From contig NZ_AP019781.1 of the NCBI RefSeq assembly GCF_019669965.1, positions 744,001-808,000 of the forward strand: a stretch of 64,000 bases of DNA. The letters run 5' to 3'. Both the position numbers and the translations under genes were made by a program. The notes beneath the pieces were generated by a model, which searched no databases, had not been told where the DNA came from, and saw only the letters and a list, made by a program, of their open reading frames with translations. Origin of the DNA: Methanoculleus chikugoensis (lineage in GTDB: Archaea; Halobacteriota; Methanomicrobia; Methanomicrobiales; Methanoculleaceae). Each line of letters opens with the position of its first letter. Positions within the stretch are counted from its first letter, which is position 1. Below are positions 9,374 through 42,304 of the stretch, piece after piece.

Positions 9374-9799
9374 TTATCGTATCTTGAGCATGAACCCGTG
9401 ACTGCATCTCCGGCACCGATACTGAGCATATATGCTGCACCCGGGAACATCGACATTCCCCAGGAGTTCCCCCGGGGAGCCGCACCGGGGGCATGCCGGC
9501 CCCCGATCGTCGAACCAGTGGCCGCATTTGAGGCATTGATGGACGGTATGGACCCGTGAGTTGGCGGTAATGATCTCCTTGACGTGGTCCCGGCACCCGC
9601 AGAATGGGCAGGGAGCAGGTCCATCCACTCCGGTATCGCACGACGGGCACGCCGTCTTCCGGGTCCTGTCTAACCCGCACACACCCGTCCCCCTGTTTTC
9701 TGCACGTTTGTTCCTCTCCGGGAGGGTGTTGCTCCACCCCTTTCGTGCTTCCGGTATACTTTCCGGCCTGCATGGGTCAACCACACTGCTCTGTCTCAT
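9374..9799 (-). CDS. Small multi-zinc-ribbon protein
   Basis: The product has 141 residues. The ATG at 9799 is preceded by AGGGAG, 5 nt upstream. At least five Cys pairs are visible: CPSC, CPFCGC, CLKCGHWF, CPRCG and CRRCSHGFM, consistent with two or three zinc ribbons in the C-terminal two thirds. The N-terminal 45 residues are polar and look disordered. A weak TATA element (CATTTAAGCG) lies about 29 nt upstream of the ATG, and three 10-bp iterons follow it toward the divergent ribbon-helix-helix gene, so both genes may be controlled from one site. A nucleic-acid or protein-binding regulatory role is plausible but unproven. Confidence 0.7.
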   Translation of the reverse strand: MRQSSVVDPCRPESIPEARKGWSNTLPERNKRAENRGTGVCGLDRTRKTACPSCDTGVDGPAPCPFCGCRDHVKEIITANSRVHTVHQCLKCGHWFDDRGPACPRCGSPGELLGNVDVPGCSIYAQYRCRRCSHGFMLKIR

Positions 9800-9830
9800 A
9801 CACTCCCTATGGGTGCTCCGATCGCTTAAA

Positions 9831-9860
9831 TGGTATCCATTGGTATCAATAGGTATCTCG
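9831..9860. promoter_or_regulatory. Three GGTATC iterons at 10-bp spacing in a divergent promoter
   Basis: GGTATC occurs at 9832, 9842 and 9852, each within a decamer (TGGTATCCAT, TGGTATCAAT, AGGTATCTCG). Spacing is exactly one helical turn. The array sits between the promoters of the zinc-ribbon gene (minus) and the ribbon-helix-helix gene (plus). Dimeric ribbon-helix-helix repressors often bind short half-sites repeated at such spacing, so this is a candidate autoregulatory operator. Confidence 0.6.
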
Positions 9861-9917
9861 TTGAAAAAATAAAAACAATACAATATAATTGTCCTGCCGG
9901 AATACCTGAATAGGAAG

Positions 9918-10199
9918 ATGGAGTCTCCCGATAACGTCTCAAGCAAGCAGGTGGGTGTGCGGCTCCCGGGTCATCTCTACCGGTGGCTGAAGGAGAAGGT
10001 CGACAGCGGCGAGTACTCGAATATGGCCCAGTCCGTCATCGGAGAACTGACGAAAGCGAGGACGCTCGAAGAGGTGCGGCGCCGCGAGACTTCGCTTTAT
10101 GGTGCGGGCGAGAACGAGCCCCTCGTCCGGATGGTGAACGAGCGCATCGAGGGGTTCCGCCGCGAGCTCCTGGATGAAGTGAAACGGCGGCAAGCCTGA
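9918..10199 (+). CDS. Ribbon-helix-helix (CopG-like) DNA-binding protein
   Basis: The 93-residue protein starts at an ATG 6 nt downstream of the expected transcription start of a TATA-like element (CAATATAATT, 9881-9890). The N-terminal beta strand KQVGVRLPGHLYRWL followed by two helices (EYSNMAQSVIGELTKAR) fits the ribbon-helix-helix fold. The C-terminal half is a charged helix probably used for oligomerisation. It is divergent from the zinc-ribbon gene across three GGTATC iterons, which suggests autoregulation. No toxin-like partner lies downstream; the next gene is modA after 232 nt. A solo regulator is more likely than an antitoxin. Confidence 0.7.
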   Translation: MESPDNVSSKQVGVRLPGHLYRWLKEKVDSGEYSNMAQSVIGELTKARTLEEVRRRETSLYGAGENEPLVRMVNERIEGFRRELLDEVKRRQA

Positions 10200-28824: not shown

Positions 28825-30378
28825 ATGACTACCCGCCTGCGTCAAAAAGCGTCAGATCCATCCCGGCCACGCCCACCCGCCGCGGACCTGCCGGTCGTTC
28901 TCCTGGTCGGCGTAGTTGTCGGGCTTCTGCTCGTCCAGGGTGTTGCCGCCACGCCCGCGGCGCCGATCGTTGTGGCGGCGAGCGACAGCAGCGCTGCAGC
29001 GGATGCGCACTACGTCTGCGACGGCCTCGACGACCAGGTGGAGATCCAGGCGGCGCTCGATGCGCTGCCGCCGGGCGGCACGGTCGTCCTCTCGGACGGC
29101 ACGTTCAACTGTTCGGGCAGCCTCATCCCCGCCGCCGGAGCGACGCTTCTCGGGCAGGGGCCGGAGAATACGTCCCTCGAGTTCAGCCGGAACGGCCTCC
29201 TTAACGTCTCGGAGGAGAGCGTCACCCTGGATGGATTTCACATCCGGGGCTCGGGCTACGTGAATGCGAGTACGGATACGACCCTCGACCTCACCCGGTG
29301 GCACGGGGTGCTCACCGTCTACGCGAGCCATGCCCGGGTGTACAACGTCACGGGCACGGCGGACGCGAGCATCCAGGCGGTCTTCCTCCTCCTGCACAAC
29401 CCGAACGTCTACGCCCCCGTCCTCGAAGACGTCGAGTTCGCCGACTGCCGGGCCGCGGATACCGGGACCTACGGGTTCCTCCACAACGCCTGGGGGACTG
29501 AGAACACGACGATCAAAAACGTCCGGTACGTGAACTGCTCCGCCATCAACTGCGGGAGCAACGGTGCGTTCAACCAGTGGGTGACCGGGTTCAACTTCGC
29601 GGAGTTGAACGATATCGAGGGTCTCCGGGTGGCGGACTGCCTCGCGGAGGGCAACCTGGAGTCCGGGTTCCACTTCGAGTGGGACTCGGAGAAGCGCGAC
29701 TGCGTCTTCACCGACTGCGTGAGCCGCAACAACGGCCGGAAACCCTATCCCGACGACTACCTGGTGGGCGACCCCGACTTCTTCGGCGCTGGCTTCTACC
29801 TCCCGGGAGGGGAAGTGGCGCTGGTGAACTGCCGGGCAGAGGGGAACGGTGCGTTCGGGTTCTTCGTCATCAACCCGGAGGGCATGCTCCTCTACAACTG
29901 CACCGAGAGCGAGACCGGCCGTAACTCGACCGCCGGCACCTCCGCGAAACCCATCTCCTACTGCATCCTCCAATCCCTGCCTGTCTCGAAGAGCCCGTCC
30001 ATCGTGATGGATCACTGCCGGAGCCTCGACTCGTACGGCTGGGGCCTCTTTGTCTGCGGCACGGAGAACGCGCTCATCAGGAACTTCACCATGACCGATC
30101 CGGCGGGTATCAACGGTGTAGGGGCGATGCTCGGGTGCCCGTCCGGCGAACTCCCGGTGAACTCGACGATCGATGCGGGCATCTCCGACTCGGTCATCGA
30201 TATCTCCGCGTCGGGCGACCGGCCGCAGACGCTGGTCTCCATCGTCAACAACAGAAACGTCGCGTACTCCGGGACGATCGTCTCCGATGCTCCCCGCCCG
30301 GTGGCGGTCGAGTGGAACCTGGAAGGGGGTGTGGACCTGACGGGTCTCAAGGTGCTGCCGGCCGGCGGTGCGGCATAG
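28825..30378 (+). CDS. Secreted right-handed beta-helix surface protein (paralogue 1)
   Basis: This 517-residue protein starts at ATG 28825 with GAGGAG 4 nt upstream. A transmembrane/signal segment (LPVVLLVGVVVGLLLVQGVAAT) is followed by the family N-terminal module VVAASDSSAAADAHYVCDG and EIQAALDALPPGGTVVLSDG, then a parallel beta-helix with repeated short strands and Asn/Cys ladders (NCSAINCGSNGAF, DCVSRNNGRKP, NCRAEGNGAFGFF). The fold belongs with pectate-lyase-like and carbohydrate-active beta helices; no catalytic residues can be assigned. Of the four paralogues this is the most diverged in its C-terminal half and lacks THYFGCGYYAP. It stands at the edge of the glycan gene region. Confidence 0.8.
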   Translation: MTTRLRQKASDPSRPRPPAADLPVVLLVGVVVGLLLVQGVAATPAAPIVVAASDSSAAADAHYVCDGLDDQVEIQAALDALPPGGTVVLSDGTFNCSGSLIPAAGATLLGQGPENTSLEFSRNGLLNVSEESVTLDGFHIRGSGYVNASTDTTLDLTRWHGVLTVYASHARVYNVTGTADASIQAVFLLLHNPNVYAPVLEDVEFADCRAADTGTYGFLHNAWGTENTTIKNVRYVNCSAINCGSNGAFNQWVTGFNFAELNDIEGLRVADCLAEGNLESGFHFEWDSEKRDCVFTDCVSRNNGRKPYPDDYLVGDPDFFGAGFYLPGGEVALVNCRAEGNGAFGFFVINPEGMLLYNCTESETGRNSTAGTSAKPISYCILQSLPVSKSPSIVMDHCRSLDSYGWGLFVCGTENALIRNFTMTDPAGINGVGAMLGCPSGELPVNSTIDAGISDSVIDISASGDRPQTLVSIVNNRNVAYSGTIVSDAPRPVAVEWNLEGGVDLTGLKVLPAGGAA

Positions 30379-40846: not shown

Positions 40847-42304
40847 ATGACAGACAGGCAGAATATACTGAGACTGGCTGCAGCACTTCTGGTGTGCTGC
40901 TTTATTGGGGCACTCTCTCCGGTAAGTGCAGCCGAGTCCGCAAGTCCGGCCACGCTCACTGTGGCTGCAAGCGATAGCACCGAGCTGTCGAAGAACCAGG
41001 CAGACTATGTCTGTGACGGAGTCGACGACCAGGCCGAGATCCAGGCGGCGCTCGCCGCGCTGCCCGAAGGCGGTAACGTCGTCCTCTCGGACGGTACGTT
41101 CAACTGCGCCGGCGTCATCGCGCCGCCGGCAGGCACGACGCTCTCCGGACAGGGTCCGGATGCAACGAACCTTGTCTTCACCAGCGATGGACGTATCAGC
41201 GTCGACAAGGAGTACGTGACCCTCGACGGGTTCCACATCGAGGGCAGCGGCTACAGCAGCGGCGTCAAGTGGCTCGGTGTGATGACTATCCGTGCAAGCC
41301 ACGCGAAGATTCACAACATCACGGGTACCGCTGATGCCAGCATCCAGGCGGTCTATCTCCTGATCCACGATCCGGCGGTCTATGCCCCGACCCTTGAAGA
41401 CGTCGAGTTCGTCAACTGCAAGGCCGTGGACACCGGCACCTACGGGTTCCTCCACAATGCCTGGGGATCGACGAACAAGGTGATCAAGGACGTCCGCTAT
41501 GACAACTGTCAGGCGATCAACTGCGGAAGCAAAGGCGCGTTCAACCCCTGGATCACTGGGTTCGACTTCGCGGAGTTGAACGACATGGACGGTCTCAGAG
41601 TGACGAACTGCCTTGCTGAGGGTAACCTGGAGTCCGGGTTCCACTTCGAGTTCGACCCGAAGGTGACGAACGCCGTCCTCGAGAACTGCACGAGCAAGAA
41701 CAACGGGCAGAAACCCTACCCGTCGGTGCCCTACAAGCAGAGCGACATGTCGACCCACTACTTCGGGTGCGGATACTACGCCCCGAACGCCGACGTGACG
41801 TTCAAGAACTGCGTCGCGGAAGGCAACTCGCTGTATGGGTTCTACGCGACGAACGGCGGCAAACTCTACGACTGTGTCGACAAGGACACCGGCGCCGGGA
41901 AGACCGACTACACCCACCGTAAGCCGGCCGGCTACTACAGCATCCCGAGCCGCTCGACCGACCCCGCCCTGGTGCTTGAGAACTGCACGAGCATCGACTC
42001 GCACGGCTACGGCCTCCAGGTCGACCTCGCGAGCAACATCCGGATCGAGAACTTCGAACTCGTGAACCCGGCAGGGATCGACGGCAAGGGTGCAAGCCTC
42101 GGCGGCACGAACGGCCAGTTCAGCAATGCCGAAGTGGACATCCACGCCTCCGGTGACCGGGTCGATACGCTCGTCTGGGCGAAGAACAACCAGAACGTCC
42201 AGTACACGGGAGAGGTAACCTCCGCCTCCGAGAAGGCGTTCCTGGTCGAAGGCGGCCAGAACGTCCAGACGGACGGCATGGCGGTTGCGTCTGCCGGCGA
42301 GTAA
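40847..42304 (+). CDS. Secreted right-handed beta-helix protein (paralogue 4)
   Basis: This 485-residue protein starts at ATG 40847 with GAGAGG upstream. The signal peptide is LRLAAALLVCCFIGALSPVS and the mature N-terminus begins AESASPATLTVAASDS. The beta-helix is very close to the dockerin paralogue, sharing ASHAKIHNI, TADASIQAVYLLIHDP, DTGTYGFLHNAWGSTNKVI, LESGFHFEFDPKVTNAVLEN and DMSTHYFGCGYYAPN. It ends after the beta-helix without CARDB, dockerin or anchor, so it may be freely secreted. Similarity extends to DNA level, suggesting recent duplication or gene conversion. A hairpin plus T-tract terminator follows. Confidence 0.82.
   Translation: MTDRQNILRLAAALLVCCFIGALSPVSAAESASPATLTVAASDSTELSKNQADYVCDGVDDQAEIQAALAALPEGGNVVLSDGTFNCAGVIAPPAGTTLSGQGPDATNLVFTSDGRISVDKEYVTLDGFHIEGSGYSSGVKWLGVMTIRASHAKIHNITGTADASIQAVYLLIHDPAVYAPTLEDVEFVNCKAVDTGTYGFLHNAWGSTNKVIKDVRYDNCQAINCGSKGAFNPWITGFDFAELNDMDGLRVTNCLAEGNLESGFHFEFDPKVTNAVLENCTSKNNGQKPYPSVPYKQSDMSTHYFGCGYYAPNADVTFKNCVAEGNSLYGFYATNGGKLYDCVDKDTGAGKTDYTHRKPAGYYSIPSRSTDPALVLENCTSIDSHGYGLQVDLASNIRIENFELVNPAGIDGKGASLGGTNGQFSNAEVDIHASGDRVDTLVWAKNNQNVQYTGEVTSASEKAFLVEGGQNVQTDGMAVASAGE

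Follow-up and report, generated by a model that had tools for sequence, protein, structure and literature searches.

Gene order and features of the locus

The element described here lies between two divergent genes of Methanoculleus chikugoensis, within the 64,000-nucleotide stretch of DNA that was analysed (the window), which corresponds to positions 744001-808000 of a genome assembled as a single contig of 2.62 Mb. The order here, shared by most of the genus, is ahcY, a zinc-ribbon gene (minus strand), the presumed operator, a gene for an apparent ribbon-helix-helix (RHH) protein (plus strand) and modA; the features are listed in Table 1. A preliminary description had noted three GGTATC words at exact 10-bp spacing; these were confirmed at 9832, 9842 and 9852 (the interval originally given, 9831-9860, includes a few flanking bases), as was their placement between the divergent promoters of the zinc-ribbon and RHH genes, an arrangement that is conserved with the pair in relatives.

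Table 1. Positions of the genes, boxes and candidate promoter elements in the window.
Feature	Position	Strand	Remarks
Zinc-ribbon protein, 102 aa, several C-x-x-C pairs	9374..9682	-	Probable GTG start at 9682, AGGGGG just upstream
Probable untranslated leader of zinc-ribbon gene	9683..9799	-	In frame here by chance
TATA-like element of zinc-ribbon gene, ATTTAAGC on minus strand	9824..9831	-	Adjoins box 1; candidate, from sequence only
Proposed operator, three GRTAYC boxes at 10-bp period, here GGTATC CATT GGTATC AATA GGTATC	9832..9857		From the sequence and the relatives' alignment
Box 1, GGTATC in this genome	9832..9837	+	Abuts TATA-like element of minus-strand zinc-ribbon gene
Box 2, GGTATC here	9842..9847	+	Dyad centre
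Box 3, GGTATC here	9852..9857	+
TATA-like element of RHH gene, AATATAATT	9882..9890	+	After conserved A-rich stretch; candidate, likewise
Box 4, degenerate here (AATACC)	9901..9906	+	About -17 from RHH ATG
RHH-type protein P0001, 93 aa	9918..10199	+	Extra C-terminal helix

Within the window the triple pattern matches only at 9832-9857, even with up to 3 mismatches allowed (0.04 expected), and it is also the one place with three evenly spaced copies (every 7-21 bp) of a non-trivial 6-mer, an event for which 40 dinucleotide shuffles of the window give an expectation of 0.075 (about 1 in 13). With such an expectation the repeat in the window by itself is weak evidence, suggestive only, so that the case for an operator rests on the comparison across genomes. 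GGTATC as a single word occurs 48 times in the whole window against 27.7 in shuffles, perhaps a matter of codon usage. A different repeat, GGGACCTACGGGTTCC, is found at 29464, 31292 and 33237 (with a variant at 41435), in steps of about 1.8-1.9 kb, and probably marks repeated genes or domains.

The long zinc-ribbon reading frame (9374-9799, minus strand) encodes 141 aa from 9799 because a GTGTGT run has contracted by 2 bp and so brought the apparently untranslated leader into frame. The leader (9683-9799) and the zinc ribbon are in different frames in most relatives, and at the site of the GTG at 9682 a start codon (GTG or ATG) is conserved behind a purine-rich stretch. Judged from these alignments, translation probably starts at 9682 and not at the ATG of the long frame. 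A leader frame of about 43 codons, apparently conserved in most relatives, was rejected as coding because its third positions are not the most variable (0.29, 0.36 and 0.25 for the three codon positions, vs. 0.05, 0.02 and 0.18 in the RHH gene). Profile searches with the zinc-ribbon protein matched zinc-ribbon families only and no toxin family. The TATA-like element of its gene reads TTTATATA or TTTATACG in other genera; a scan for promoters of the sigma-70 type is not meaningful for an archaeon.

P0001, the product of the plus-strand gene, has no meaningful match in Pfam and none by sequence in the PDB, and its similarity to a ParD-type antitoxin family in NCBIfam (E 0.026) falls below the cut-off. 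Its AF2 model has a presumptive strand at residues 10-16 and helices at 18-29, 36-60 and 67-92, which is the strand-then-two-helices order of the RHH class, with block means of pLDDT of 95-98 over residues 21-50; DSSP calls no strand at 10-16 because the single-chain model leaves that strand without a partner. In a Foldseek search with the model the best matches were RHH proteins, ParD2 first (probability 0.85, E 0.31, not significant alone). The model points to a protein of RHH type, an assignment that is weak by sequence. The family shows no variation at residues 10-24 (KQVGVRLPGHLYRWL), which comprise the strand and the beginning of the first helix. The literature on archaeal RHH operators in methanogens yielded nothing on P0001, and one scan of viral contigs found no relatives, leaving a mobile or viral origin unsupported.

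Conservation and symmetry of the boxes

RHH orthologues are present in 30 of the 40 genomes of the Methanoculleus family, and those 30, with no others, also carry the zinc-ribbon gene. It had been suggested at the outset that the repeats be sought upstream of orthologous gene pairs; they are there in all 30, with 23 exact matches to GRTAYC-N4-GRTAYC-N4-GRTAYC, 6 with 1-2 mismatches (16 or 17 of the 18 box positions matching) and 1 interrupted. The exact triples in the family always lie at the RHH gene (23/30), none of the 10 family genomes that lack this gene has the triple, and in the rest of the order an exact triple occurs in only 3 of 192 genomes, at unrelated places. The association of triple and RHH gene gives Fisher p-values of about 1e-22 over the order and 2e-5 within the family, both of which overstate the case because genomes were treated as independent and related ones are not.

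The boxes sit at about -86, -76 and -66 from the RHH start codon in nearly all orthologues, and most relatives carry a fourth, single box at about -17, which is GATACC, GGTACC or GATATC. In Candidatus M. thermohydrogenotrophicum (L112, G034:C191) the zinc-ribbon and RHH genes are separated by what looks like a transposase gene, the apparent insertion extending from about -1170 to -145 relative to the RHH start and leaving two boxes on the zinc-ribbon side. The three-box element is kept over four genera; more distant RHH homologues, in another family of the same order, have no boxes. Comparison shows the boxes, their spacing, their symmetry and their inheritance together with the gene pair, and on these alignments the GGTATC repeats are a real and conserved, operator-like element between divergent genes.

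The orientation of the boxes has to be described differently from the original account, which spoke of three direct iterons. Of 28 distinct operators, 27 have GATACC as box 1 and only that of this genome has GGTATC; box 2 is GGTATC in 16, GATACC in 6, GGTACC in 4 and something else in 2; and box 3 is GGTATC in 21. The common form in relatives is GATACC-N4-GRTAYC-N4-GGTATC, with the outer boxes opposed, and the all-direct form, found locally, differs from it by two transitions in box 1; repeats in a single orientation are thus confined to this genome, the outer boxes being inverted in 27 of 28 operators. Information content over the same 28 averages 1.77 bits in the box columns vs. 0.85 in the spacer columns, and the central box is conserved almost to the same degree as the outer two. 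Nearly all changes within a box are exchanges of A and G at its second position or of C and T at its fifth, which preserves GRTAYC while the spacers drift. In two relatives the operator is a perfect 26-bp palindrome, GATACCTATGGGTACCCATAGGTATC and GATACCTATTGGTACCAATAGGTATC. What is conserved, to judge from the aligned operators, is a near-palindromic GRTAYC box that recurs once per helical turn around a dyad.

The genome most similar at this locus among those compared (G004) has an ahcY gene 97% and a modA gene 98.5% identical to those here, and the immediate flanks of its operator (L019) are 98-100% identical, vs. 6 differences in the 26 positions of the operator itself. So many changes beside near-identical flanks are surprising for a site under simple constraint; the boxes themselves are nevertheless preserved. 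The 3' part of the RHH gene (10088-10199) is likewise only 83% identical to L019, where the operator flanks, ahcY and modA are 96-100% identical. From the sequences, local fast change or recombination may account for the divergence of the operator and of this 3' part.

The zinc-ribbon partner and the neighbourhood

The zinc-ribbon protein of Methanoculleus is without an RHH region. In the sister genus (G036, G037) the divergent partner starts with an RHH-like region (ITVRLPDSLYRWLMEKV in G036), followed by the zinc ribbon; a model of this fused form, of low confidence, has two helices and then a strand-rich part. A second divergent RHH/zinc-ribbon pair, paralogous to the first, was found in two genomes (L095, G008:C27; L096, G032:C59). 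Its boxes are GTATGC and GCATAC, inverted and 21-22 bp apart, its RHH protein has a different strand (PISGRIP against QVGVRLP), and its partner has an RHH-like region that is either recognisable or decayed. A changed strand together with changed boxes is as expected if the RHH protein reads the box. An unrelated observation concerns GGAATCGACCGGGATCTACTGGTATC, which is identical within and between genomes (L034, L058, L061 and L063 in G002; L041 and L060 in G011; L053 in G031) and is likely a mobile element.

Because the zinc-ribbon partner has an RHH-like region in the sister genus, the pair resembles the CdrS/CdrL system of haloarchaea: a small RHH protein with an RHH-zinc-ribbon protein (the latter in the sister genus only), and, by inference here, their own promoter as target. 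CdrL combines RHH with a double zinc ribbon; its single binding site in the genome is located upstream of cdrS, which encodes an RHH protein (PMC7439475), and CdrL has been reported only in Halobacteria (PMC7439475, PMC8406309). Unlike CdrS/CdrL, the pair here is divergent and has no linkage to ftsZ, and the partner in the genus has no RHH region. Identity of P0001 with CdrS was rejected: the CdrS gene lies directly upstream of ftsZ2, whereas P0001 is followed by modA, and the same genome has a separate CdrS-like RHH gene of 62 aa (L142, G000:C1:1656848) directly before its ftsZ gene. Identity of the zinc-ribbon protein with CdrL was rejected as well, the protein being a zinc ribbon only in this genome, with the RHH-like region in the sister genus.

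We tentatively put forward, as possible but on the whole doubtful, that these loci represent an archaeal module outside the Halobacteria in which duplicated RHH genes, one of them fused to a zinc ribbon, stand divergent over an operator with one box per turn. The fused copy would have lost its RHH region in Methanoculleus and kept the zinc ribbon, which may then serve as a signal or co-regulator for the remaining RHH protein.

The preliminary description also tied the pair to molybdate transport. As a matter of neighbourhood this stands, modA being the next gene in the genus, but modA was not found within about 1.5 kb of the pair in the other three genera (some contigs end sooner), and the modA promoter has no paired boxes. 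The search for boxes elsewhere in the genome, also proposed there, found no wider regulon: with strict patterns, by which weaker sites could be missed, there are three further box pairs, about the number expected by chance (about 2.5 by base counting), and two of these lie in long frames. Control seems, from this near-chance number, to be local to the locus.

The boxes as a probable operator of the RHH protein

The explanation that we consider probable is that the boxes are the operator of the downstream RHH protein, occupied by one dimer per box, with repression both of the protein's own gene and of the divergent zinc-ribbon gene. Each GRTAYC box, itself near-palindromic, would take one RHH dimer, with the two-stranded sheet of the dimer in the major groove, and three dimers would lie side by side on one face of the DNA, the middle one on the operator dyad. 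We infer that the RHH protein is the binder, that the dimers number three and bind cooperatively, and that the regulation is negative. The geometry first proposed for RHH dimers fits, in that dimers could line up next to each other on boxes spaced by a single helical turn; taken by itself, the arrangement is also compatible with a different dimeric regulator. A central dimer on the dyad would allow the middle box to face either way while the outer boxes are opposed in relatives, and the reversed box 1 of this genome suggests that a near-palindromic box is read tolerably in either direction.

In archaeal promoters TFB contacts the stretch just upstream of TATA. Since the zinc-ribbon gene has its TATA-like element directly beside box 1, occupied boxes would, given this promoter anatomy, cover the TFB site and repress that gene. 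The RHH gene is likely to be repressed as well, rather than activated, though with less certainty, since about 24 bp separate the end of box 3 from the TATA-like element downstream; in most relatives this autorepression would be helped by the fourth box, between TATA and start codon. The outcome would be a self-limiting two-gene switch confined to the locus, in which the zinc-ribbon protein may be a partner or a sensor.

P0001 and its proposed operator are in several ways like those of autoregulated RHH repressors such as CopG, AmrZ and ParD: a small N-terminal strand with two helices, and several adjacent near-palindromic subsites at the protein's own promoter, with the proposed dimers in successive major grooves. 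MetJ, Arc and omega are further autoregulated repressors of this class. Unlike the known RHH repressors, P0001 has no Pfam or NCBIfam match at cut-off and carries an extra C-terminal helix, and its three boxes stand about a dyad at a 10-bp period, with a divergent zinc-ribbon partner and an archaeal promoter. AmrZ binds as a dimer of dimers on two half-sites (PMC3325190), and CopG forms chains on its operator (PMC8251345).

The strongest competitor, unlikely in our estimation, is an unlinked dimeric regulator, for instance of helix-turn-helix type, that would control both genes from the outer boxes (GATACC-N14-GGTATC) or from two adjacent boxes, the RHH protein being a target and not the binder. 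The strictly inverted outer pair and the full palindromes would suit any two-fold symmetric protein, and in E. coli three dimers of NanR, a GntR-type repressor, bind cooperatively to the operator (GGTATA)3 (PMC8012715), which like the element here has three copies of a nearly identical word. NanR, however, acts on direct repeats, whereas the conserved arrangement here is inverted and no GntR-type gene lies beside the site. An unlinked regulator also fits poorly with an operator that is found only with the RHH/zinc-ribbon pair, with a central box nearly as conserved as the outer ones, and with a paralogous RHH pair that has different boxes of its own.

Somewhat less likely again is the reading that the operator is bound or tuned by the zinc-ribbon protein, either on its own or in a complex that also contains the RHH protein, after the manner of CdrL, whose single genomic site upstream of cdrS (PMC7439475) offers a precedent. 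The N-terminal RHH-like region of the partner in the sister genus, and in part in the paralogous pair, would agree with this, as would the perfect co-occurrence of the two genes, but in the genus the partner has no RHH region and the boxes are unchanged, and the fused form is modelled only at low confidence. A type II toxin-antitoxin system of ParDE kind, with the RHH protein as a ParD-like autoregulating antitoxin and the zinc-ribbon protein as toxin, was rejected as highly improbable: despite the weak similarity to the ParD family and ParD2 as best fold match, the genes are divergent and form no operon, the partner resembles zinc-ribbon families and no toxin, the locus is stable over the genus beside ahcY and modA, and the one viral scan gave no relatives. 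A chance repeat, or a conserved core-promoter sequence without a dedicated binding protein, deserves hardly any credence: about 0.08 such triples are expected in the window alone, but the comparison contradicts it, with preservation over four genera, variation restricted to GRTAYC and a strong association with the gene pair.

Operation by the RHH protein, as favoured here, would make the switch a fairly ordinary, known kind of self-regulation. Its most interesting aspects are that an RHH protein is paired with one that joins RHH and zinc ribbon, and that the latter has presumably lost its RHH region in Methanoculleus. To our knowledge, few archaeal RHH regulators have known sites, and here a candidate binding site can be read from comparison alone. 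The natural variants, which include flipped boxes, perfect palindromes and a paralogue whose strand and boxes have both changed, allow the recognition code and the dimer number to be tested directly in vitro with a protein of 93 residues.
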